From the NCBI GenBank assembly GCA_009784115.1, contig WRCH01000004.1:1-55110 (forward strand): 55,110 bases of DNA. The letters are read 5' to 3'. The notes beneath the pieces are model-generated. The model saw only the letters and a list, made by a program, of their open reading frames with translations, was not told the origin of the DNA and did no database searches. Positions within the stretch are counted from its first letter, which is position 1. Each line of letters starts with the position of its first letter. Positions 32,891 through 54,941 of the stretch are shown here, one piece after another. Source of the stretch: Chitinispirillia bacterium (GTDB lineage: Bacteria; Fibrobacterota; Chitinivibrionia; Chitinivibrionales; Chitinispirillaceae). A program made the position numbers and the translations under genes.

Positions 32891-34363
32891 TTAAGTTTTA
32901 TCTGTCCGCTTAAGCAGATATTTTATAAAAGTAAACCCTGCCTTAATAATGCGTTTAGCTTCTTGAGGATAGGCAAATACTTGCTTGAGTTTTGAAAACA
33001 GGTACGCGGGCCGCAGATAGAACTCTTTTCTTGCGCGGTCGCAAAACTTTACAAGCTCTTCGTAAGTAAGAGAGGGGTTTGAAACCACAGATGAGTGCAG
33101 CCCGTCTGAAGTGAGCCATTTTCTAAAATCGTCGGAAACTATCCACCCTTTCTCTTTAAAATACTCGTAGTCGCTTGTGCCGGGATATACCATTATTGGG
33201 TAAAACTGAGCGGTATCGGGATTGATTTCCTTTGCGAATTTCAAAGTTTTTTCTAACGTTTCACCTGTTTCGCCGCGGTTTCCTACCATAAAACAGCCGT
33301 GTACCAAAATACCGGCCTTGCGGGCGTTTTGAGTGAAATCAGAAATTTTTTCAAGAGTTATGGATTTTTCTATGTTATCAAGTATAGACTGCTCGCCGCT
33401 TTCAAATCCTACGCAAAAAAGACGGCACCCCGCTTTACGCATGAGACACATTGTATCGTAATCTACATCCGCTCTTGAGTTTGCAGACCAGGGGATGCGG
33501 TGTCCGCCTGTAGCTATAAGCGCCTCTGAGAGTTCCCGGCAGCGCTTTTTGTCTGCCGTCAGCGTGTCGTCTTCTATCATTATCTCTTTTACATCGGGGA
33601 AATTGTCCCTTATGTACAAAAACTCCTGTACGATAGATTCAATAGAACGCTTGCGGTATTTGTGCCCCTGCAAAGTCTGCGGTACAACACAGTATGTACA
33701 GCGAAACGGACAGCCCCTGCCTGTAACAAGCGTTACTATGGGATGGCGGCTGTGGCCGTAAAAATATGGTTTTATGTCAAGATGTCTGTGATAAACTTGC
33801 GATACAAACGGGATATCGTCAAGATTTTCCATAAATGGACGGGAATCGTTTTTATGAACAGCTCCCTCACTGTCTCTAAAGGCAAGTCCGCGCACCTTTA
33901 AGAGCGCCTGAGCGTCGCGGCCGCTTTCAGTCAGTACAGAAGCGAGTTCTTTGAGAGTCTCATCATACTCCCCAAAGGCAGCGGAATCTATTTGAGGCGA
34001 AAGCGAGAGAGTTTCAAGCGGCAAAGCCGATACATGAACTCCCACAAGTACAATAAATGTACCGGGGTAAGCACGTTTGAGCGCTTCTCCAACCTCTACA
34101 TCGTTATAAATGGATGGGGTTGAGGTATCAAGCACAATCATATCAGGAACAAACTCTCCGAGCGCCGCCGTTATCTCCTCAACAGAAAGCCCGGACGCCG
34201 GAGCGTCAAAAAGCTCTATGTCGTGCCCGGCCTTTTCGAGGTACCCCGCGGCGTAGCAAAGCCACATCGGATAGTATAGCGTTCCGCTCCTTGTTACTGC
34301 CGGGGAACGTGATTCCCGAGAGAATTTTGGCAGAAACGGCGGATTTAAAGCAAGTATTTTCAT
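32891..34363 (-). CDS. B12-binding radical SAM protein
   Basis: About 490 residues. The N-terminal half is a cobalamin-binding Rossmann domain (KILALNPPFLPKF, PMWLCYAAGYLEKAGH, DMIVLDTSTPSIYND), followed by the radical SAM cluster GRGCPFRCTYCVVPQ (CxxxCxxC) and a barrel with IMIEDDTLTADKKRC. Family members methylate or rearrange unreactive carbons, often in lipid, hopanoid or natural-product modification. The substrate is unknown. I chose ATG at 34363, which begins MKILALNPPF; the longer frame to 34399 adds an unlikely basic tail. It follows trxA by 45 bp and precedes the GT2 gene by 10 bp. Confidence 0.87.
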   Translation of the reverse strand: MKILALNPPFLPKFSRESRSPAVTRSGTLYYPMWLCYAAGYLEKAGHDIELFDAPASGLSVEEITAALGEFVPDMIVLDTSTPSIYNDVEVGEALKRAYPGTFIVLVGVHVSALPLETLSLSPQIDSAAFGEYDETLKELASVLTESGRDAQALLKVRGLAFRDSEGAVHKNDSRPFMENLDDIPFVSQVYHRHLDIKPYFYGHSRHPIVTLVTGRGCPFRCTYCVVPQTLQGHKYRKRSIESIVQEFLYIRDNFPDVKEIMIEDDTLTADKKRCRELSEALIATGGHRIPWSANSRADVDYDTMCLMRKAGCRLFCVGFESGEQSILDNIEKSITLEKISDFTQNARKAGILVHGCFMVGNRGETGETLEKTLKFAKEINPDTAQFYPIMVYPGTSDYEYFKEKGWIVSDDFRKWLTSDGLHSSVVSNPSLTYEELVKFCDRARKEFYLRPAYLFSKLKQVFAYPQEAKRIIKAGFTFIKYLLKRTDKT

Positions 34364-34408
34364 AATTATAACAAGTGTACGGGTACGGTTTACCCGCACC
34401 CCTTTCTT

Positions 34409-34738
34409 TTAGCCAAATACGCTCTCTATTTTTGCCTTAAGCGGCCCCTTGGCCAAAAGACCTGTGTGCTGATCGATAATAGCGCCATTCTTAAAAAAAA
34501 GCATTGACGGAATGCTGTTTATCCCATATTTGGCAGCTGTATTAGGATTTGAATCAACGTCAAGTTTGCCTATTACAACGCGGTCTTCCAAATCAACGGA
34601 TAACTCCTCAATTATTGGAGTAAGCATTTTGCATGGGCCGCACCACTGCGCCCAAAAATCTACAACCACAGGCAGCGTACTCGAAAGCACTTCCTGTGAA
34701 AAATTTTGATCCGTAAACTCCTTAAGGCTGCCGCCCAT
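34409..34738 (-). CDS. trxA: Thioredoxin
   Basis: A 109-residue thioredoxin with the active site WAQWCGPCKM and the cis-proline region SIPSMLFFKNG. It reduces disulfides in cytoplasmic proteins. It is complete and of standard size, with no signal peptide. Its start MGGSLKEFTDQNF follows AATATGGGCGGCAG. It sits between the small secreted protein and the radical SAM gene on the minus strand and may supply reductant to the latter, which is an inference only. Confidence 0.95.
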   Translation of the reverse strand: MGGSLKEFTDQNFSQEVLSSTLPVVVDFWAQWCGPCKMLTPIIEELSVDLEDRVVIGKLDVDSNPNTAAKYGINSIPSMLFFKNGAIIDQHTGLLAKGPLKAKIESVFG

Positions 34739-34749
34739 ATTCTATCCCC

Positions 34750-35049
34750 CTATTTCGTAGTAAACTGCTCATTTATCGTGAGAAGAATCGATTCATTAAA
34801 TTCTCTCCAGCTTTTTGGGTCACTCTTCTTTTTCTCTAAAAACTCAATCGCGCCCTCAGTTGTAACGCCGCACACCGACAAAAGTTCCCTGTAAAAGACC
34901 GCCGTGCTGTCCGCTCTCAAATTGCGCTCTGCCCTTAGCATTGCTACGCCCGCGAAAAAACAGGTATAATCCTCCTGGCGTTTATCGCCGCTCCAAACGC
35001 TAAAAGCGGAAGCGGTAATTACGGCGCATATTAAAATAGTTTTCCGCAT
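34750..35049 (-). CDS. Small secreted protein, hypothetical
   Basis: A 99-residue protein with a signal peptide, MRKTILICAVITASAFSVWS. The mature part is helical, with two cysteines (CFFAGVAML and LLSVCGVTTEGAI) that could form a disulfide, and ends in a charged region (KKKSDPKSWREFNES). I do not recognise the family. It lies 9 bp behind the Ser/Thr kinase gene and 11 bp before trxA in a compact minus-strand cluster, so it may be a partner of the membrane kinase. Confidence 0.6.
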   Translation of the reverse strand: MRKTILICAVITASAFSVWSGDKRQEDYTCFFAGVAMLRAERNLRADSTAVFYRELLSVCGVTTEGAIEFLEKKKSDPKSWREFNESILLTINEQFTTK

Positions 35050-45463: not shown

Positions 45464-46492
45464 TTAGCAATTTTCAGCTAAATCAAGAAGCAATTTTTCT
45501 GTATCCGCCCAGCCCAGGCAAGGATCTGTAATTGACTTACCGTATACGTCCTCATCAGCCTTTTGCGCGCCCTCTTCAAGATAACTTTCGATCATGAGTC
45601 CGCGGATAAGGTCTTTCAACATGAGATCGTGTTGACGGCTTCGCATCACTTCAAGAGCGATTCGGGGCTGTTCCTTAAAGCGCTTTCCGGAGTTGTCGTG
45701 ATTAGTGTCTACAAATATGGTTGGATTTTTCATATCGCGTTTGACATATGCGTTTGCCGCGTCAATCAGATTTTCATGATGGTAATTTGGATGCGGTTTT
45801 CCATCACTCGAAACCCATCCTCTTAAAATAAGGTGAGCGTGCCGGTTCCCTTCTGTCGCTACCTCATATCCATTATAAGAAAAAGTGTGCGGTATCTGCG
45901 CGGCTAAAACGGAATTAAGAGCTACGTTTATATCTCCGCTTGTAGGATTTTTCATACCTACCGGAATGTCAAGCCCGCTTGCCGTGAGGCGGTGCTGCTG
46001 ATTTTCTACAGACCTTGCGCCGATTGCTACATAGCAAATCAGGTCGTCTAAATATGGATGATTATTAGGATAAAGCATCTCATCAGCCGCGCTTAGTCCC
46101 GATTGTGTAAAGGAGCGGATGTGCATCTTACGGATGGCGATGATACCCTCTGCGATGTTAGGTTCTTTGAGGTGATCGGGCTGATGCGCCATTCCCTTAT
46201 AGCCCTGACCGGTTGTCCGCGGCTTATTTGTATAGATTCTTGGGATGAGGATAAGTTTCTCTTTTACCTTTTCCTGAATTGCGGCCAGACGATTTACATA
46301 TTCGCATACTGCCTCTTCATCATGCGCGGAACATGGCCCTATCACTACGATAAACCGATTATCCTTTTTTTCAAAAACATTTTTTATCTCTATATCTCTT
46401 TTGACTTTTTTCTCAAAAAGCTCTTTTGAAAGAGGTACAATCTCTTTAATTTCTGTTGGGGTCGGAAGTTTTCTGATCTCTTGGAAACTCAT
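45464..46492 (-). CDS. aroG: 3-deoxy-7-phosphoheptulonate synthase (class I DAHP synthase)
   Basis: First enzyme of the shikimate pathway, joining PEP and erythrose 4-phosphate. 342 residues of the class I type. It has VVIGPCSAHDEEAV (metal/PEP site Cys and substrate loop), LILIPRIYTNKPRTTGQGYKG (PEP site Arg), LSAADEMLYPN, ARSVENQQHRLTASGLDIPVG, NPTSGDINVALN and VDTNHDNSGK. A regulatory N-terminal segment of ~40 residues is present, so feedback by an aromatic amino acid is possible. Which isozyme (AroF, G or H) it is cannot be read reliably. No leader attenuator is evident in the ~450 bp upstream. Confidence 0.93.
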   Translation of the reverse strand: MSFQEIRKLPTPTEIKEIVPLSKELFEKKVKRDIEIKNVFEKKDNRFIVVIGPCSAHDEEAVCEYVNRLAAIQEKVKEKLILIPRIYTNKPRTTGQGYKGMAHQPDHLKEPNIAEGIIAIRKMHIRSFTQSGLSAADEMLYPNNHPYLDDLICYVAIGARSVENQQHRLTASGLDIPVGMKNPTSGDINVALNSVLAAQIPHTFSYNGYEVATEGNRHAHLILRGWVSSDGKPHPNYHHENLIDAANAYVKRDMKNPTIFVDTNHDNSGKRFKEQPRIALEVMRSRQHDLMLKDLIRGLMIESYLEEGAQKADEDVYGKSITDPCLGWADTEKLLLDLAENC

Positions 46493-46857
46493 ATAATTTA
46501 ACCTTTTTTGTTAGATTAGGTTGATAGACAAGTGATAATTTGTTCACATCTTAAATATAAATCTTGAACGAGGGTAAAAACTACCCTTGTTAAATTTGCG
46601 CAGTATGACGAAATTATAATGTTGATTTTTTCATGAAAATTGATTATACTTTAAGATATAGTGGAATATGACTTTCGGATTGAAATCGTATCAAATAAGT
46701 GATGTTATCGCGGCACTATTGGAAAGAGGGTTGTTATAAAATAAGGAGCTGATTTGCACCGCAAAGCCGTTCTCACTGCGTCTAAACGGGGAATATCGCT
46801 GAATAGGTTAGTTGAAAGTGCGATTCGGCAAACAGTAGATTCTTAAAAGCCCCAGCG
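46493..46857. other. AT-rich gene-free gap upstream of the DnaA-box array
   Basis: 365 bp with no gene. There is a small hairpin AGGGTA...TACCCT near 46568-46590, and a generally AT-rich content (for example AAATTATAATGTTGATTTTT near 46611). Such an AT-rich stretch beside DnaA boxes is what an unwinding region would look like, though none can be pinpointed here. Confidence 0.45.
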
Positions 46858-46898
46858 TTATCAACATGTTATCAACACTTATCAACATCTATTCAACT
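46858..46898 (+). promoter_or_regulatory. Phased DnaA-box-like array A
   Basis: TTATCAACA occurs at 46858, 46869 and 46879, and a variant TATTCAACT at 46890. The spacing is 11, 10 and 11 bp, about one helical turn. Each differs from the E. coli consensus TTATCCACA at one position, a variant known as a functional DnaA box in other species. All lie in one orientation just upstream of rimI. Either an origin or a DnaA-regulated promoter region fits. Confidence 0.6.
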
Positions 46899-46909
46899 TG
46901 TTTACTAAA

Positions 46910-46938
46910 TTGACCCAAAATTCGTTGTTTTATAATAA
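46910..46938 (+). promoter_or_regulatory. Promoter of rimI, possibly giving a leaderless mRNA
   Basis: TTGACC (46910-46915) and TAATAA (46933-46938) with a 17-bp spacer, or TATAAT (46931-46936) with 15 bp. The ATG is at 46942 and no Shine-Dalgarno lies in front of it, so transcription would begin almost at the start codon. Confidence 0.5.
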
Positions 46939-46941
46939 ATT

Positions 46942-47397
46942 ATGAACGAAATTGATAACATAATTTTCAGACCCGCACAGCTTGATGACCTTGACCGCAT
47001 CTACTCCATCGAACAGCTCTGCAATCCAAATCCGTGGAGCCGCGCGGGGCTCTCTGTGGAATTAACGAAAACATCGGCGCTTTTTCCAGTCATCGAAAAT
47101 CACCAAAAATTAATTATTGGTTTTGCCTGTTCTGTATTGATTTTAAATGAATTACATATATTTGAAGCCGCCGTTCATCCTCAATATCAAAACAGAGGTT
47201 TAGGAGCATCATTAATAAAACATCTGCTGAGTGAAGCAATTTTAGTCGGAGCCGACACTGCGCTCCTTGAGGTAAGGGTCTCAAACCACAGTGCCATAAG
47301 AGTTTACGAAAAATGCGGCTTTAAAAGAGATGGCCTTAGAAAAGGGTACTATCAGGACGGTGAAGACGCGCTTTTGATGTCAAAAACGCTGAATTAA
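46942..47397 (+). CDS. rimI: Ribosomal protein S18-alanine N-acetyltransferase
   Basis: RimI acetylates the N-terminal Ala of S18 and possibly other proteins. 151 residues of the GNAT fold: FRPAQLDDLDRIYSIEQLC, the EAAVHPQYQNRGLGASLIKH acetyl-CoA site (Q/RxxGxG/A), LLEVRVSNHSAIRVYEKCGF, and YYQDGEDALLMSK at the end. It is alone on the plus strand between two DnaA-box-like arrays, against the direction of the genes on both sides. It may be leaderless. Confidence 0.9.
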   Translation: MNEIDNIIFRPAQLDDLDRIYSIEQLCNPNPWSRAGLSVELTKTSALFPVIENHQKLIIGFACSVLILNELHIFEAAVHPQYQNRGLGASLIKHLLSEAILVGADTALLEVRVSNHSAIRVYEKCGFKRDGLRKGYYQDGEDALLMSKTLN

Positions 47398-47442
47398 CAA
47401 CTTATCCACAAATTATCAACCTGTTATCACCTTGTTTAAACA
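47394..47442 (+). promoter_or_regulatory. Phased DnaA-box-like array B
   Basis: A perfect DnaA box TTATCCACA at 47402-47410, then TTATCAACC at 47413 and TTATCACCT at 47424, 11 bp apart, with a weaker TTTAAACAC near 47435 and TTAACAACT at 47394. Same orientation and phasing as array A, about 540 bp away, with rimI between them. It overlaps the rimI stop and the end of the bactofilin gene. Confidence 0.65.
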
Positions 47443-47789
47443 CTTACGGCACTGCTTGATTTCTGCATCGAACAATTACCGTGGAACACCGCGCCCTCGC
47501 TGATCACAAGCTCTTTTGCGTGCAAATCGCCAATGACCGTGGCGCTCGCTTGAAGTTCTACGCGATCTTCAATGTACATACTGCCGATAACTTTTCCAAA
47601 AATAAACGCGCTCTGCGCCTTAATCTCCGCTTCCACAACGCCGCTGTCGCCGATTGTAACAGACTCCTGGGTCTGAAGTTTGCCTTTAAACGAGCCGTCG
47701 ATGCGGATGCTGTGGGGTACGTCTATCGTTCCTTCAAATACACTTCCCGGGCCGATGATATTGAGTAGTCCTTTTGCGTGTTTGTCCAT
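47436..47789 (-). CDS. Bactofilin
   Basis: A 117-residue cytoskeletal polymer protein. The bactofilin core is a right-handed beta-helix: NIIGPGSVFEGTIDVPHSIR, then IDGSFKGKLQTQESVTIGDS and the repeats VVEAEIKAQSAFIFGKVIGS and HAKELVISEGAVFHGNCSMQ. The conserved IDGxxxGxI/L motif is present. Bactofilins form filaments that shape cells and often recruit M23 peptidases or work with ParAB. Both neighbours are present here: an M23 peptidase follows upstream at 47876, and parAB beyond it. Likely the last gene of this operon. Confidence 0.93.
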   Translation of the reverse strand: MDKHAKGLLNIIGPGSVFEGTIDVPHSIRIDGSFKGKLQTQESVTIGDSGVVEAEIKAQSAFIFGKVIGSMYIEDRVELQASATVIGDLHAKELVISEGAVFHGNCSMQKSSSAVSV

Positions 47790-47875
47790 CTTTAAAACTC
47801 CTTTTTTAACGGTGACCGCAAGTGTTCATACAAACACCGCAGTCTGCAAAGAGATAATATTCATTTTACTATTAG

Positions 47876-48718
47876 TTAATGTTTCTGCCCGCTTGCGGCA
47901 TAGTCCATTGGGTTTACGGGTCTGCCATCTTTTAAAATTTCATAATGTAAATGAGGCGCGGTCGAACGGCCGGTGTTGCCGACTAAAGCGATCGTCTGCC
48001 CTCTGTTAACTCTGTCACGCACCGATACAAGAACCTGCGAACAGTGCCCGTAGCGGGTTACAAATCCATGATCATGACGGATTTCTACCATTAAACCGAA
48101 ATATTTATGGTGGCGGATATCTTCCACAACTCCCATAGCCGTTGCCCTTATGGGCGTACCGCTCGCGGCGGCGAAATCTGTGGCGAGATGCAGATCTTCG
48201 GGATCGTCCGAAAAGTGCCGCGTTATCCATCCGTTAACAGGCAGGATACTGGGCACAGACGCGGCGAACTGTTCATTGTTGACAAGCGTACTTCTATGTG
48301 TTTCCGCGGCTACTGCCGGGGCAGTCTCAACCGGACGCTGCGGTCTTGACTCTTCGGGAGGCGGCGTTGTCCTTCTTGGAGGAGGAACGGCCGCCGCCTG
48401 TACATCACTTTGAGGAATAATTGCAAGCCTGTGGAGATAAACGGTAAGACTCTCTATACTTGCGATTTTTTCCGCTGATATTTGTAAACTCTCATTATCT
48501 GTTCTTAAACGGTTGTTGTCCTCTTTTAACGCGTGGATAAGCTGAAGCCTTAAGGCGATTTCTCCCGACTTGTATATAAGAACCGCACCGCCTAAAATAA
48601 ATAAAGAAATTGACACTATCAATAACTTAAGCGTACCGCGATGCACCTTAAGCGAGAATGGAGCGCCATTCCCTTCAGGAAAAAACATTAGTGTATAGTG
48701 CTTTTTTTTGTTTTTCAT
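47876..48718 (-). CDS. Membrane-anchored M23 metallopeptidase
   Basis: A 280-residue peptidoglycan endopeptidase facing the periplasm. A short basic cytoplasmic tail (MKNKKKHYTLMFFP) is followed by one helix (LKLLIVSISLFILGGAVLIY), a coiled coil (LKEDNNRLRTDNESLQISAE), a Pro-rich linker, and the LytM/M23 domain with HLATDFA (HxxxD) and APHLHYEI (HxH). All zinc ligands are present, so it should be active. I chose ATG at 48718; the frame reaches 48790 but that part overlaps parB. The neighbour bactofilin probably positions it for cell-shape control. Confidence 0.9.
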   Translation of the reverse strand: MKNKKKHYTLMFFPEGNGAPFSLKVHRGTLKLLIVSISLFILGGAVLIYKSGEIALRLQLIHALKEDNNRLRTDNESLQISAEKIASIESLTVYLHRLAIIPQSDVQAAAVPPPRRTTPPPEESRPQRPVETAPAVAAETHRSTLVNNEQFAASVPSILPVNGWITRHFSDDPEDLHLATDFAAASGTPIRATAMGVVEDIRHHKYFGLMVEIRHDHGFVTRYGHCSQVLVSVRDRVNRGQTIALVGNTGRSTAPHLHYEILKDGRPVNPMDYAASGQKH

Positions 48719-48728
48719 TTTACAAAAT

Positions 48729-49679
48729 TTACTGATTGTTATTATTTCCGCTTTGTTTACGCGGCGCAGCCTCTTCCAACAACAAATCAAATACTCTTAT
48801 TAAATCGTCATTATTATAATATTCTATCTCTACCTTACCCTTATTTTCACCCATTGTTTTGAGCTTTACAGATGTACCGAATTTGTACTGCAAACGCTCT
48901 AACTGAAAAGTAGTATTTGCGTCGTGTTCCTGTGCTGTTTTTGTCGGTTTTTCAGCTGCTGCTTTCGGTTTGGTTTCCTTTGTCTGAGAAGCGATCGTTT
49001 CAATATCTCTTACTGTCAACCCGTTTTGGGCAGCGCGGCGCGCCTCTTTGAGCTGAGTTTCACCGCACTCTATCGCAAGAAGCGCTCTTGCGTGACCCAT
49101 ACTGAGTTCGTTTTTACGAACCATCATTTGGATCTCTTCGGGCAAATTCAAAAGACGCAAACTATTGGTGATTACCGTGCGGCTCTTGCCTACCTGTTTT
49201 GACAACTCTTCATGCGTGTAACTGAACTCAAGGATTAATTTTTGGTAAGCTATCGCTTTCTCAATCTCGTTGAGCTGTTCGCGCTGAATATTTTCCACAA
49301 GCGCAAGCTCTAACATCTCTTTATCGGTAACGTCCTTTTTAACTATACAGGGGACGCTCTCTTTTTTGAGATGCCTGAAAGCACGGAAGCGGCGCTCGCC
49401 GGAAATAATCTCATACTTGGCGCCCTTTTGCCGAATGACAACCGGCTGCAAAAGTCCCTGATTGTTAATTGACTGCGCGAGACCCTCTATCTCATCATCG
49501 TCAAAATCAATACGCGGCTGAAACGGGTTGGGCACTATTGCGTTTATGTCAATAAGCCGGATCTCTTTATCGTTGGCATTAACGCTATCATCACCGTCAT
49601 CCTGCGGAGCTGGACGAATAAGACTGTTAATACCCCTGCCAAGGCGCGAGGGTTTTGGTTTACTTGCCGATTTATTCAT
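48729..49679 (-). CDS. parB: Chromosome-partitioning protein ParB
   Basis: ParB loads on parS, spreads as a CTP-dependent clamp and drives origin segregation with ParA. 316 residues with the ParB domain INAIVPNPFQPRIDFDDDEI, YEIISGERRFRAFRHLK (CTP motif GERRxRA), the HTH YTHEELSKQVGKSRTVITNS, and a C-terminal dimer domain (KVEIEYYNNDDLIRVFDLLL). Two perfect parS sites occur at 53311 and 54926. parA overlaps it by 8 bp upstream. Confidence 0.96.
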   Translation of the reverse strand: MNKSASKPKPSRLGRGINSLIRPAPQDDGDDSVNANDKEIRLIDINAIVPNPFQPRIDFDDDEIEGLAQSINNQGLLQPVVIRQKGAKYEIISGERRFRAFRHLKKESVPCIVKKDVTDKEMLELALVENIQREQLNEIEKAIAYQKLILEFSYTHEELSKQVGKSRTVITNSLRLLNLPEEIQMMVRKNELSMGHARALLAIECGETQLKEARRAAQNGLTVRDIETIASQTKETKPKAAAEKPTKTAQEHDANTTFQLERLQYKFGTSVKLKTMGENKGKVEIEYYNNDDLIRVFDLLLEEAAPRKQSGNNNNQ

Positions 49680-50454
49680 TATTCATAATTTCCTTAGCTA
49701 ATGTTAAATAATTTTCGGCGCCGTTAGACATGATGTCATATAAAATAATCGGTTTGCCAAAAGAGGGCGCTTCACTAAGTTTTACATTACGTGATATAAC
49801 CACTTCAAACACCCTCCCCGAAAAACAGGAACGCACATCCGCCGCAACCTCTTTTGAAAGAGTAAGACGGCCGTCATACATTGTTAAAAGCGCACCCTCT
49901 ATCACAAGTTTGGGATTCAAATTTTTCTGAACCAAATTAATAGTATTCAAAAGCTCCGCAAGACCCTCAAGCGCGTAATATTCGCATTGAACAGGTATCA
50001 AAACGGAAGTTGCGGCTGTAAGCACATTTACAGTTAAGAGGCCAAGAGAAGGGGGCGAATCAATGATAATATAATCGTACTCATCCTGTATGGATTCAAG
50101 CGCCGCCTTGAGCCGCTTTTCCCGCGCCATCGTGTTGACTAATTCAATCTCTGCCCCAGCCAAATCAGGCGTAGCGGGCGCAACATCCAAAAACTTCATA
50201 AAGTCAACTGATACGCGGATATCCCGAATAGTAACCGTTTTGTCGTTTAAGTTCTTCTCGGTGATAACATCGTACATCGAAAGCTCAATCTCATTTTTAT
50301 CTATGCCAAGACCCGTAGTGGCGTTTGACTGGGCGTCCATATCAACCACAAGTGTCCGCCGCTCCGCGGCAGCGAGACACGCCGCCAGGTTTATTGACGT
50401 CGTAGTCTTGCCAACACCGCCCTTTTGATTACAAACCGCTATAATTTTCGCCAC
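49672..50454 (-). CDS. parA: Chromosome-partitioning ATPase ParA (Soj)
   Basis: A Walker-type ATPase that moves ParB-parS complexes. ~260 residues with deviant Walker A AVCNQKGGVGKTTTSINLA, DMDAQSNATTG (A'), IIIDSPPSLGLLTVN (Walker B) and the C-terminal SKEVAADVRSCFSG block. I chose GTG at 50454 because TGAGG lies 6 bases before it; the frame opens four codons earlier. Overlaps parB. Repeat R2 (50466-50604) lies just upstream, between it and rsmG. Confidence 0.95.
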   Translation of the reverse strand: MAKIIAVCNQKGGVGKTTTSINLAACLAAAERRTLVVDMDAQSNATTGLGIDKNEIELSMYDVITEKNLNDKTVTIRDIRVSVDFMKFLDVAPATPDLAGAEIELVNTMAREKRLKAALESIQDEYDYIIIDSPPSLGLLTVNVLTAATSVLIPVQCEYYALEGLAELLNTINLVQKNLNPKLVIEGALLTMYDGRLTLSKEVAADVRSCFSGRVFEVVISRNVKLSEAPSFGKPIILYDIMSNGAENYLTLAKEIMNNE

Positions 50455-50465
50455 CGAGAGCCTCA

Positions 50466-50604
50466 CAGTCCCCCGGGGCTGAAACCCCGGGTTACAATCT
50501 TAATGTCCCTGCGGGACATGGGAAAAACGTAATCCACACAACCCTATCTACTTGCCCCTTTAGGGGCTAAAGATTGCAGCGGTGGGTTTTAACCCGCCGC
50601 GATG
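50466..50604. repeat. Two R2 repeats between rsmG and parA
   Basis: The left unit is CCCCCGGGGCTGAAACCCCG with TTACAATCTTAATG and a GTCCCTGCGGGAC hairpin. The right unit (50554-50604) is GCCCCTTTAGGGGC, AAAGATTGCAG and GGTGGGTTTTAACCC. Each has two short hairpins joined by AGATTG or its complement. The family also occurs at 8001-8053 and 55034-55087. Confidence 0.75.
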
Positions 50605-50606
50605 TT

Positions 50607-51287
50607 TCACACAAACTCCATCGACACCAAATTCAATCCGTGTATTAATCCGCCTAAATCATACTGAGCGATTTCGCTTATTTTTATTCTGTCTTCATCT
50701 TTATTGACTGTTATTAAATTCAATTCATCAACAAATGATTTCGTTTTGAACGTATACATATGCCCGTCGGGCGCCAAAAGCGGCTTTGCGAGAGCGGAAA
50801 ACTTTTGCAGCGTTCCAAGACCGCGGCCCATTACATAATTTGCCTTAATGTCAAGAGACGAGCTCTCCGCCTTGGCACAGTGAATATCTACATTGTCAAA
50901 ATCAAGCCTTGTTCTGACCTCTTTTAAAAACGAGGCTTTTTTGCGGTTCGATTCAAATAGCACAAAGTTAAGATCGGGACGGAAAATTCTTATAGGTATT
51001 GATGGAAACCCGCCGCCGGCGCCGATATCAAACACCGTGGCTCCCTTTTTAAATCCAAACAATAAAAGCGGCTGAATTGAATCGCAAAAATGGCGCAAAA
51101 AGATATTATCCTCATCCACAGCAGGTATAAGCGCGGCCTCTTTATTATGTGTGAGCACAAGACTCATATATGTCAAAATCAAACTTCTCTGATCAAGATC
51201 CGGCGAAAGACCAAGTTTCTCCAACTCCTTTAACTCGTAACTCTCTTTCGCCCGCTCTAAAAAAGAAACCATCTGTGTTGCACTCAT
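50607..51287 (-). CDS. rsmG: 16S rRNA (guanine-527-N7) methyltransferase
   Basis: RsmG methylates G527 of 16S rRNA using SAM. 226 residues with FLRHFCDSIQPLL, the SAM site VFDIGAGGGFPSIPIRIFRP and LDFDNVDIHCAKAES, plus VMGRGLGTLQKFSALAKPLL. It has the usual place between mnmG and parA. Slightly longer than E. coli RsmG. The C-terminus ends at an R2 repeat. Confidence 0.93.
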   Translation of the reverse strand: MSATQMVSFLERAKESYELKELEKLGLSPDLDQRSLILTYMSLVLTHNKEAALIPAVDEDNIFLRHFCDSIQPLLLFGFKKGATVFDIGAGGGFPSIPIRIFRPDLNFVLFESNRKKASFLKEVRTRLDFDNVDIHCAKAESSSLDIKANYVMGRGLGTLQKFSALAKPLLAPDGHMYTFKTKSFVDELNLITVNKDEDRIKISEIAQYDLGGLIHGLNLVSMEFV

Positions 51288-51298
51288 GTATATTCCTT

Positions 51299-53263
51299 TT
51301 ATAAATTATTCCGCTTTAACAAATACATTGCTAAAACAGAAATATCCGCAGGGGTTACTCCCCCAATCCTTGACGCTTTGCCAAGCGTGTCGGGATCTAT
51401 TTTTTTCAACTTTTCACGCGATTCGAGGCCAAGACCCTCAACCTCGTTATAATCAAAATTTGCAGGGATGTACGTATTTTCAAACCTGCGCAATTTTTCT
51501 ATCTCGTTTTGCTGCTTTCTTACGAATCCTTCGTATTTTATGTCGGATTCGACTCCCAATATCAGATGCCGGTTTATCTCCTGGACATCTTCGAATCGTG
51601 GATGATCATCACAATTTTGGCGATGATCATCTTTACAATTCAGATGATTACTCCCGCAAGACGGGCGACCGCAAGGGATCGCCCCTGCGAGATTGTATTG
51701 CGGATGATTACAAACCGCCATCACGTGATGAAATTTCACCTCCGGACGTTTCAATAAATCACCGGCTGACTCGCTCTTGGTTATACTTGCGCCCGTTGCT
51801 TCGTTAAACGCGTTGGGGGTAATTTTTACACTGTATAACCAATCTATAACCTCTTTTTTCCGATCCCAAAACCTGCGGCGCTCGTTGTACTGATCATCCG
51901 ATACCGTCCCAAGACTATGCGCAATCGGCATCAATCTCTCGTCACAGTTATCCTGCCTGAGCAGTAACCGATACTCCGCCCTCGAGGTGAACATCCTGTA
52001 CGGCTCGTCTGTCCCCTTTGTGACAAGATCATCAATAAGTACACCGATATACGAACTGTCCCGGCCCAAAACAACCGGCTCATCCCCTAAAATATTTTGA
52101 ACCGCGTTGATCCCGGCGATAAGACCCTGACAGGCCGCCTCCTCATAGCCGGAGGTTCCGTTTATCTGACCCGCGAAAAACAGGTTGCGCACAATTTTTG
52201 ATTCAAGGGTAGACTTAAGCTGCAGCGGCTGGAAATAATCGTACTCAATTCCATATCCCGGACGCGTAATTTTGGCAGCTTCCAACCCCTCTATACTTTT
52301 AACCAAACTCTCCTGAACATCGTAAGGAAGAGAGGTCGAAAAACCATTGATATAAATCTCTTTATGAGAGAGAGTCTCTCTTTCTAAAAATAATGTATGG
52401 CCACCCCGTTCTCCAAATCTCACGATCTTATCCTCTATCGACGGACAGTAACGGGGGTACGCTCCGGTCGCTTTTCCGCTGTACAAAAACGTCTTATCTT
52501 TATTATCGACAACGAGTTTGTGGGTGAGTGTATTTGTTTTAGCCGTAAAGCAAGTCATCTTGTTGACGAGCTTTTCCTTAGTGAAAAACGAAAACGGCCA
52601 AGGGTCGTCATCGCCATGCTGGGGGGTCAGTTTCGAATAATCAACACTCTGCGCGTCTATCCTTGGCGGCGTTCCTGTAGTGAGCCGCCCCGAAGAGATC
52701 CCAAACTTGCCGATGCACTCCGTCAACCCCAAAGATGCAGGCTCCCCCGCCCGTCCTCCGGCAAACGTGTTCAGCCCGATATGAATCGTTCCGTTTAAGA
52801 AAGTTCCGGCGGCCAAAATGACCGCTTTTGCAGCGATTATTTCACCATTATCCAAGGTAACGGTACGGATTCTTTCTCCAGAGACACTTAATTTCGTGAC
52901 CATCGCCTGTAAAATCATAATGTTAGGGTTGTTTTCGATTGACTGACGGGCAAGCGTTTTGTAGTGATCTTTATCCGCCTGAGCGCGCAAACCCCACACC
53001 GCACTCCCCTTGCTACTGTTGAGGACGCGAAAGTGGATACCGCTGCGGTCGATAAGCGACGCCATGAGTCCCCCAAGCGCCCCGATCTCCCGAACAATAT
53101 TCCCCTTAGCCACCCCGCCGATCGCCGGATTGCAAGGCATCATCCCTATAAAATCAATGTGGCTCGTCACCATCAAAACGGAGACGTTTCGTTTAGCCGC
53201 GATATTTGCGGCCTCGATAGCGGCGTGTCCGCCGCCGATTACTATGAGGTCGAAAGTGGTCAT
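51299..53263 (-). CDS. mnmG: tRNA modification enzyme MnmG (GidA)
   Basis: With MnmE, MnmG makes the carboxymethylaminomethyl group on U34 of some tRNAs. FAD binding is seen at LIVIGGGHAAIEAANIA, then GGVAKGNIVREIGALGG, GTFLNGTIHIGLN (catalytic Cys is replaced or nearby), YPRYCPSIEDKIVRF, and the C-terminal VESDIKYEGFVRKQQNEIEK. 654 residues are about 30 more than normal. The excess is at about residues 510-555 in the helical C-terminal domain, where HHVMAVCNHPQYNLAG and a Cys/His/Asp-rich run (SNHLNCKDDHRQNCDDHPRF) replace a normal ~24-residue stretch. That DNA has hairpin repeats of its own (51595-51735). Confidence 0.93.
   Translation of the reverse strand: MTTFDLIVIGGGHAAIEAANIAAKRNVSVLMVTSHIDFIGMMPCNPAIGGVAKGNIVREIGALGGLMASLIDRSGIHFRVLNSSKGSAVWGLRAQADKDHYKTLARQSIENNPNIMILQAMVTKLSVSGERIRTVTLDNGEIIAAKAVILAAGTFLNGTIHIGLNTFAGGRAGEPASLGLTECIGKFGISSGRLTTGTPPRIDAQSVDYSKLTPQHGDDDPWPFSFFTKEKLVNKMTCFTAKTNTLTHKLVVDNKDKTFLYSGKATGAYPRYCPSIEDKIVRFGERGGHTLFLERETLSHKEIYINGFSTSLPYDVQESLVKSIEGLEAAKITRPGYGIEYDYFQPLQLKSTLESKIVRNLFFAGQINGTSGYEEAACQGLIAGINAVQNILGDEPVVLGRDSSYIGVLIDDLVTKGTDEPYRMFTSRAEYRLLLRQDNCDERLMPIAHSLGTVSDDQYNERRRFWDRKKEVIDWLYSVKITPNAFNEATGASITKSESAGDLLKRPEVKFHHVMAVCNHPQYNLAGAIPCGRPSCGSNHLNCKDDHRQNCDDHPRFEDVQEINRHLILGVESDIKYEGFVRKQQNEIEKLRRFENTYIPANFDYNEVEGLGLESREKLKKIDPDTLGKASRIGGVTPADISVLAMYLLKRNNL
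51595..51735. repeat. Hairpin element (R4) inserted in frame in mnmG
   Basis: Contains GGGCGACCGCAAGGGATCGC, which pairs with itself, and three GATGATCATC-type palindromes or variants. It lies exactly over the non-conserved ~45 residues of MnmG and keeps the frame open. The GGGCGA...TCGCCC hairpin type is shared by interspersed repeats in many bacteria. Confidence 0.55.
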
Positions 53264-53310
53264 TAGTATAAAAATACTATTTGGCGGGGTGATAGTGATC
53301 TGATGATTGA

Positions 53311-53326
53311 TGTTTCACGTGAAACA
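53311..53326. promoter_or_regulatory. parS site, between mnmE and mnmG
   Basis: TGTTTCACGTGAAACA, a perfect match to the bacterial parS consensus. It lies 5 bp beyond the mnmE stop, 48 bp before the mnmG start. Confidence 0.95.
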
Positions 53327-53330
53327 TCCC

Positions 53331-54914
53331 CTACTTCCCAATACAAAACTTGTCAAATATATTATTCATAACCTCATCATTTGTGACATGCCCCGAAAAC
53401 TCCGACAGGAGATTCAGCGCGTTTCTCAGGTATTGAGCGGCGATCTCTTCCCTTTCGATATTATCAATCGTTTGCTTTAGTTCACGGAGAGCAGAACTGA
53501 TCACGCCGCGATGACGATCGTTTACGATTATTTCCGGGGGGGCTATCTGCCCCGTTATCTCTCGGATATTGAGGGCTGTATCAGCGAATAATTTTTCGAT
53601 ATTGATTTTTTCTTTGATGCTGATTTCGATGTGTTTTAGGTTGTGGGCGGCGCAGAACCCTCGGGCGTTGCCCGGGGTTAAGTGATGGCGCCCCTTTGGG
53701 GTGCGGAATAAATGCAACTCCGTCCCCAATTTATCAATTTTGTTGATCACCACCAACGTCTTTTCCGCGTTTTCTAAAATCTCTCTCTCCTCTTGATGAC
53801 CCATAACCTCATCCGCTGATGTCACCCACAGAATAAAATGCGCCTCTTTTACCGCAGATAATGTCCGCTCAATTCCCTTTTGCTCGATGTCGTCTTGGGT
53901 TTCTCTTATCCCGGCGCAGTCAAACAGTTTAACCGTTATCCCGTCGAAACTGACTTTTTCAGAGATTACGTCGCGGGTGGTTCCCGCGCGGTCGTGGACT
54001 ATTGAGCGGTCAAATCCCAATATCTCATTAAAAAGGCTAGACTTGCCAGCGTTCGGCGGACCGGCGAGAGCCAAAATTATCCCCTCATCAAACCTCTTTA
54101 TCAACTCACTTCGGCGCAGCTCTTCCTCAAATTCCCCGGCGATTTTTTCTATATCGGTTTTGGTATTGACCTGAGAATTCGCCACTGCATCCTCTTCACC
54201 GAACTCTATCCGGCTCTCAATGTCCGACAGCAGATCAATTATTTTTGATTTGTAGTTTTCAATTTTGTTCCGCTGATTTCCCTGATAAGCGATGAGCGCG
54301 CTTTCATGATGTTTCTCGGTTTGGCTGTCAATGAGGCTTGCGATGCTCTCCGCCCTGAGAAGATCTATCTTGCCGTTAAGCAGCGCGCGTCTCGAAAACT
54401 CTCCCCGGCCCGCGGGCTGCGTCCCTGCGCGAAACAGACGGTCTAAGATTTTCGCGGTGATTATAGTCCCCCCGTGGCAGAGGATCTCCACCATATTTTC
54501 GCCGGTGAAGGATTTAGGGGAGCTGTATTTTATGGCGGTTACTTCGTCGATGATTTGCGTAGGGCAAATCCCCGGGCGATGCCCGGGGTTAAATGATGGC
54601 ACCCCTTCAGGGTGCGGAATAAAAGCAACTCCGTCCCCAAATTCCGATTCAGTATCGGGGACGGAGTTGCTTTTATTCCGTATCGACTTGTGAAATAAAG
54701 TCAACTCCGTCCCCAATTTAGTCCCAACGGGGTTATTATCAACAACCGTATAAATCCCAATCTTACGATTCTCTTCCTTTTGAAATTTCTCTTTTTCGCT
54801 GATCACCGACGCAAAAATCTCATGGGCGTCGTCCCCTGTCATACGGATAACGGCTAACGCCCCGCGTCCCGGCGGGGTGGAGAGGGCGGCGATTGTGTTT
54901 GTGGAGATGTTCAT
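53331..54914 (-). CDS. mnmE: tRNA modification GTPase MnmE, with repeat insertions
   Basis: MnmE is a GTPase partner of MnmG. The core is intact: N-terminal folate-binding domain (TIAALSTPPGRGALAVIRMT, SPKSFTGENMVEILCHGG), G1 GPPNAGKSS (about 285-293), G2 AGTTRD, G3 DCAG, G4 NKID (391-394), and the C-terminal DKFCIGK with its Cys. The total is 527 residues against ~455 in relatives. The excess is in two blocks, at about residues 64-119 in the N-terminal domain and about 396-425 just after G4. Both are encoded by R1/R2 repeat DNA. Whether the loops are tolerated in the folded protein or removed is unknown. It is the first gene of the mnmE-bactofilin cluster. Confidence 0.94.
   Translation of the reverse strand: MNISTNTIAALSTPPGRGALAVIRMTGDDAHEIFASVISEKEKFQKEENRKIGIYTVVDNNPVGTKLGTELTLFHKSIRNKSNSVPDTESEFGDGVAFIPHPEGVPSFNPGHRPGICPTQIIDEVTAIKYSSPKSFTGENMVEILCHGGTIITAKILDRLFRAGTQPAGRGEFSRRALLNGKIDLLRAESIASLIDSQTEKHHESALIAYQGNQRNKIENYKSKIIDLLSDIESRIEFGEEDAVANSQVNTKTDIEKIAGEFEEELRRSELIKRFDEGIILALAGPPNAGKSSLFNEILGFDRSIVHDRAGTTRDVISEKVSFDGITVKLFDCAGIRETQDDIEQKGIERTLSAVKEAHFILWVTSADEVMGHQEEREILENAEKTLVVINKIDKLGTELHLFRTPKGRHHLTPGNARGFCAAHNLKHIEISIKEKINIEKLFADTALNIREITGQIAPPEIIVNDRHRGVISSALRELKQTIDNIEREEIAAQYLRNALNLLSEFSGHVTNDEVMNNIFDKFCIGK
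53643..53735. repeat. R1/R2 composite inserted after G4 of mnmE
   Basis: Read on the coding strand: GGGGACGGAGTTGCATTTAT, a hairpin ACCCCAAAGGGGC, then ACCCCGGGCAACGCCCGAGG. The frame gives LGTELHLFRTPKGRHHLTPG. About 85% identical by eye to part of the insertion at 54558-54722, but read in another frame there. Confidence 0.85.
54558..54722. repeat. R1/R2 composite inserted in the N-terminal domain of mnmE
   Basis: Holds three R1 cores. In coding order: one read LGTEL, one inverted and read NKSNSVPD, one read GDGVAFIP. Then the two hairpins seen in the 53643-53735 copy, read PEGVPSFNPGHRPGICPTQ. All three forward frames or orientations remain open. Confidence 0.85.
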
Positions 54915-54925
54915 ATTATGATATA

Positions 54926-54941
54926 TGTTTCACGTGAAACA
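54926..54941. promoter_or_regulatory. parS site, upstream of mnmE
   Basis: TGTTTCACGTGAAACA, perfect. It lies 12 bp upstream of the mnmE start codon, so ParB binding could also affect mnmE transcription. Confidence 0.95.

Follow-up and report, generated by a model that had tools for sequence, protein, structure and literature searches.

Our data show that in a Chitinispirillia bacterium the rimI gene is flanked by two arrays of DnaA boxes, A and B, and that these arrays are a real feature, conserved in the sister species. On balance we lean towards reading them as oriC-proximal DnaA-binding satellite clusters, which would sit some 13 kb left of the actual oriC and sequester DnaA; control of rimI by array A may come in addition. 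The window analysed here (55,110 bp) is one entire contig, C4, of an assembly (G000) that consists of 205 contigs and is 89% complete. The features on which the argument draws are these:

46858 to 46887, plus strand: array A, three exact TTATCAACA boxes at 46858, 46869 and 46879 (motif search and direct reading)
46890 to 46898, plus strand: doubtful fourth box of array A, TATTCAACT, three mismatches (direct reading)
46910 to 46936, plus strand: possible rimI promoter, TTGACC at 46910–46915, a 15-bp spacer and TATAAT at 46931–46936 (read by eye)
46942 to 47397, plus strand: rimI, ribosomal protein S18-alanine N-acetyltransferase family (TIGR01575)
47402 to 47432, plus strand: array B (motif search and direct reading)
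48729 to 50466, minus strand: partition genes parB and parA (ORF list and family profiles)
50607 to 54914, minus strand: run of rsmG, mnmG and mnmE (ORF list)
53311 to 53326, no strand assigned: parS, perfect TGTTTCACGTGAAACA
54926 to 54941, no strand assigned: parS, perfect TGTTTCACGTGAAACA

The boxes of array A stand head to tail in steps of 11 and then 10 bp. In array B an exact TTATCCACA at 47402 is followed by TTATCAACC at 47413 with one mismatch and TTATCACCT at 47424 with two, in steps of 11 and 11 bp and all on the plus strand. An earlier note on this DNA had given the box positions, the common direction and the 10–11 bp steps (11, 10 and 11 in A if 46890 is included, 11 and 11 in B), and all of these stand, as do the three exact boxes of array A. 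The variant that it added at 46890 is very weak, and because of its three mismatches it is not to be counted. The same note had proposed counting boxes across the genome: there are 123 exact ones in the whole assembly versus 31 for a reversed control, and tandem pairs are exclusive to the two arrays. The pattern TTATCMACA-N1-3-TTATCMAC has three matches in all 2,865,785 bp, each at array A or B, and its reversed form has none. Within the window the three tandem pairs compare with zero in 120 first-order Markov surrogates of the window, and the seven exact boxes with a mean of 0.98 in the same surrogates. The arrays are compact DnaA-box clusters that lie outside the inferred oriC. The exact boxes of the assembly are strand-biased (86 forward and 37 reverse, on contigs that are presumably oriented arbitrarily), and those of the sister species number 87 and 86. 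An Rfam scan of 46400–48000 returned nothing up to E = 1.

It is quite improbable that these repeats bind another regulator or are chance look-alikes of DnaA boxes. Sequence alone cannot name a binder, and the group has two DnaA paralogs, whose C-terminal regions carry different signatures (GGRDHSTV in DnaA1, mostly GGRDYSTV in DnaA2). Nevertheless, the boxes match exactly those found at the oriC of this order and upstream of dnaA2, tandem pairs do not arise in surrogates, and the arrays are conserved in the sister species.

The rimI product scores 107.8 bits against TIGR01575, for which the cut-off is 86.4. The gene runs on the plus strand among minus-strand genes (glgP, aroF, bactofilin, M23 peptidase, parB, parA, rsmG, mnmG and mnmE), and the surrounding genes and strands, with everything from aroF to mnmE on the minus strand, are as first described; profile checks cover rimI, aroF and the ParA and ParB families, and the remaining gene names were assigned by eye. 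The MnmE (53331–54914) and MnmG (51299–53263) of this genome have, also by eye, odd-looking low-complexity inserts. Counted from the rimI start codon, array A spans –84 to –55 and immediately precedes the possible promoter, whose TATAAT stands 5 bp ahead of the ATG and whose spacer is short. Our promoter scan (5 matches in total versus 2.8 expected in shuffles) does not include this TTGACC-N15-TATAAT. The AT fraction is 0.79 over the 42 bp that follow array A, between it and the ATG. Array B starts 4 bp past the rimI stop codon in this genome and in the sister species alike, and here it falls between the convergent rimI and bactofilin genes.

Such a layout makes it conceivable, though we consider it doubtful, that the arrays are mainly operators: DnaA at array A would activate or repress rimI, array B would stop or insulate convergent transcription, and neither would have a real role in timing. 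Control of rimI by array A is the chief competitor of the sequestration reading. The end of array A, 55 bp ahead of the ATG and upstream of TTGACC-N15-TATAAT, fits with this, but the place of array B past the stop codon is unexpected for a rimI operator, and we are aware of no reason for DnaA to control an S18 acetyltransferase.

Comparison with relatives bears on the operators from both sides. We searched 41 genomes, among which the sister species (G001) alone shares the genus of our bacterium. Its relaxed tandem pattern has two matches genome-wide, one on either side of rimI and both in the direction of the gene: one is just past the stop codon and the other 115–134 bp ahead of the start (boxes at –134 and –123). 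A stretch of 19 bases of array B, TTATCCACAAATTATCAAC, is identical in the two species. Together rimI and its arrays have been kept despite a different left neighbour (aroF/glgP here versus another ORF there), as would suit operators. Beyond the genus, weak arrays are found upstream of rimI in two genomes of genus g10, G010 (boxes with one and two mismatches) and G015 (four boxes with one mismatch), at places similar to that of array A, those of the sister species being farther upstream. This partly conserved position at the rimI promoter favours control of rimI over pure titration. On the other hand, no array was seen at rimI in the flanks examined of G018, G020, G021 and G023, and in such flanks it is lacking in four of the eight g1 and g10 genomes with a close rimI homologue; the satellite clusters of relatives, moreover, sit at other genes. 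Six loci with 52% identity or more came from the search for rimI homologues, each of them in a Chitinispirillales or Fibrobacteria MAG, and 74 distant homologues were left out. Among the matches listed, relaxed tandem pairs in relatives number 27, in 16 of the 41 genomes (reversed control, 5), and several of them fall inside ORFs of other genes. The earlier suggestion of a titration-type site or of DnaA control of rimI survives as a putative function and gains strength from the fact that both arrays are conserved in the sister species.

It had also been proposed that this locus is a candidate origin, with the suspicion that the origin lies rather to the right. The relatives, which are Chitinispirillales MAGs (their termite-gut source is read from sample names), have a gene run mnmE–yidC–rnpA–dnaA–dnaN that continues the rsmG–mnmG–mnmE order of the window, and the contig ends just past mnmE. 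Over 4,818 bp of dnaA1–dnaN gap they have 30 exact boxes, spread over 13 of 16 genomes (there is no exact box in this gap of G015, G025 and G031), and the rnpA–dnaA1 gaps of 16 genomes, 7,029 bp in total, contain none. These counts come from 34 loci chosen for holding the gene cluster, with gap edges that are tblastn edges and so approximate, and array A is outside every gap of that table, as aroF is absent from its gene list. The cumulative GC-skew minimum, which the earlier note had suggested computing, is found at dnaA/dnaN on all three long contigs of relatives examined: at 33,153 in G001 (dnaA1 at 33,464–34,867), at 119,920 in G005 (119,150–120,493) and at 95,566 in G008 (96,007–97,368; contig C7, covered except for its last 418 bases). 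Genome sizes of relatives are rounded. In the window itself the cumulative skew falls toward the right end and reaches its minimum at 54870, not at rimI. The right end of the window has five boxes where 0.36 are expected (Poisson P = 3.6e–5, for a region chosen post hoc). An origin at rimI is therefore rejected from skew and synteny together, and the suspicion of one to the right is supported.

In the sister species the arrays are 12.5–13.1 kb from the start of dnaA1, and the gene order of our genome is the same up to the end of the contig. By synteny, then, its oriC is probably in the dnaA–dnaN gap, beyond the right end of the contig and some 13 kb away from rimI, and the closeness of arrays A and B to oriC is likewise a matter of synteny. 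Neither a match to dnaN nor a dnaA1 beside it was found in the 205-contig assembly; the origin contig is absent from it, and therefore the position of oriC in this genome rests on synteny. We regard it as very improbable that the locus is nonetheless the origin, either by itself or as half of a bipartite one with rimI in the loop. It has the only tandem box pairs of the available assembly, two arrays that flank a gene as in bipartite origins and an AT-rich stretch between array A and the ATG, and the missing dnaA1–dnaN region makes a direct comparison impossible. But the skew minima at dnaA/dnaN in three relatives, the fall of the skew across the window and the conserved boxes of the dnaA1–dnaN gap all argue against it. 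A weak further point is that the rimI regions have no run of five DnaA-trio-type triplets; the dnaA–dnaN gap of the sister species, a positive region, has none either, and since the search is empty in test and positive regions alike, it is uninformative.

Two matches to PF00308 (E < 1e–30) are present in 27 of the 41 genomes. The single DnaA of our assembly (L005:3677–5122, contig C24) belongs to the second paralog: it shares 75% identity with the copy on contig C45 of the sister species and 43% with the dnaN-adjacent one. Locating dnaA, which the earlier note had also proposed, gives a gene on C24, and the dnaN-adjacent one is absent from the assembly. As an origin marker the C24 gene was rejected: it is the second paralog, and its neighbours are ORFs that look by eye like pdxJ and maf, with dnaN not next to it. 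Of 19 dnaA2 loci, 16 have a listed box cluster directly upstream of the gene. DnaA1 of genus g10 is short, with an open frame of 348–371 aa (G010, L084:6400–7425; G015, G019, G020 and G023), and that of G010, the one scanned, is without the Pfam DnaA_N domain, which DnaA2 of our genome has.

Exact boxes are also in excess around the origin of relatives. Within 20 kb of dnaA1, with dnaA1 and the oriC gap excluded, we counted 60 in 17 genomes, whereas 200 permuted motif pairs gave 7.3 on average and never more than 22; the excess is partly general, because the motif is also in excess genome-wide, as the count in our own assembly shows. In the rsmG–parA gap, which totals 4,234 bp, 15 of 25 genomes have exact boxes, 21 altogether; the parB–M23 gap holds six, in G021 and G023, and mnmE holds 13 over 17 loci, namely nine in G010, three in G015 and one in our genome. 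Other genes and gaps of this gene run outside the oriC gap have nearly none. The mnmE of G010 (L084:1071–2852) has an in-frame low-complexity insert of NVDNI repeats, the codons of which spell TTATCCACA boxes, and five of its nine boxes are inside this insert. Clusters of G004, G005 and G008 stand 2.9–3.7 kb beyond the dnaA1 start on the dnaN side, and those of other relatives elsewhere within about 15 kb of dnaA. A satellite cluster is common but not universal, since several dnaA1 regions are without a cluster or have one at the oriC gap only. Five of the 16 dnaA1 regions (G011, G015, G020, G025 and G031) have no compact cluster of at least two exact boxes, G025 and G031 having no exact box at all in the regions scanned; in G009, G014, G016, G006 and G032 the compact cluster is at the oriC gap only, and in the regions scanned G009 and G011 have dnaA–dnaN boxes only. 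Separately, in another family of the same order, a 5-kb contig (G036:C24, L143:3179–3388) packs nine exact TTATCCACA boxes into some 200 bp, an origin-like cluster with no recognised neighbour gene.

A rule by which satellite boxes point to the origin was considered and rejected, with 36 boxes toward it versus 24 away within 20 kb in the 17 genomes. All seven exact boxes of the window do point toward the inferred origin. The directional bias reflects base composition, because permuted motifs share it (901 to 568).

Since clusters wander among genes yet stay near oriC, we favour sequestration of DnaA by arrays A and B. Because the boxes are head to tail with a period of 10–11 bp, 1–2 bp apart, DnaA molecules would be placed on one face of the helix and could bind cooperatively. 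The arrays would then keep DnaA in the neighbourhood of the origin and so dampen initiation or set its timing, in the manner of the oriC-proximal clusters of B. subtilis, and DnaA at array A might also alter transcription of rimI, given the position of this array upstream of the possible promoter. That DnaA binds the arrays, is sequestered there or affects rimI is our inference; sequestration and control of rimI may both hold at once. Titration capacity would be modest, as the locus has four exact boxes and the assembly 123.

Known systems offer partial parallels. According to an excerpt of a review (PMC5295017), B. subtilis initiates early when its six DBCs are deleted, and the same excerpt assigns these DBCs no individually significant roles, which counts against the sequestration reading. 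Arrays A and B resemble them as compact DnaA-box clusters outside oriC and, by synteny, near the origin; they differ in that two head-to-tail arrays flank rimI, in a full form found in this genus only, and in that relatives have two DnaA paralogs. In E. coli DnaA is titrated and boxes are enriched near oriC, as stated in part of PMC12371093. The datA, DARS1 and DARS2 sites of E. coli are likewise non-origin DnaA-box clusters and act on the availability or activity of DnaA, whereas A and B are direct repeats that all face the same way and lie some 13 kb from the inferred origin. That DnaA on the arrays changes its ATP/ADP state, and is not merely held there, seems to us improbable: datA looks like a tight box cluster outside oriC (excerpt of PMC5295017) and two arrays 0.5 kb apart could pair, but every box here has the same direction. 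Low-affinity sites of E. coli oriC are also adjacent, and their 2-bp spacing is tied to facilitated cooperative binding in the part of PMC6727663 consulted; unlike them, the boxes of A and B are exact or near-consensus and the locus is not an origin.

A wider and rather improbable reading is that in this order DnaA1 and DnaA2 share one box language and that in many lineages a satellite cluster stays tied to oriC, at a distance of no more than about 15 kb, but changes its place: it would be found on both sides of rimI, ahead of parA, in the parB–M23 gap, past dnaN or in the in-frame mnmE insert. The satellite would be a place of competition or exchange between the two proteins and would couple initiation to the par genes and rimI.

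Our literature search returned no paper on oriC-proximal DnaA clusters in Chitinispirillales or Fibrobacter (the latter judged by title), and as far as it goes, the present clusters would extend this phenomenon to a new group. It appears that the position of a cluster can shift between genes while staying near the origin, as expected if near-origin dosage, and not control of one gene, is selected. With its two DnaA paralogs the group may be a useful test of how the supply of initiator is partitioned.
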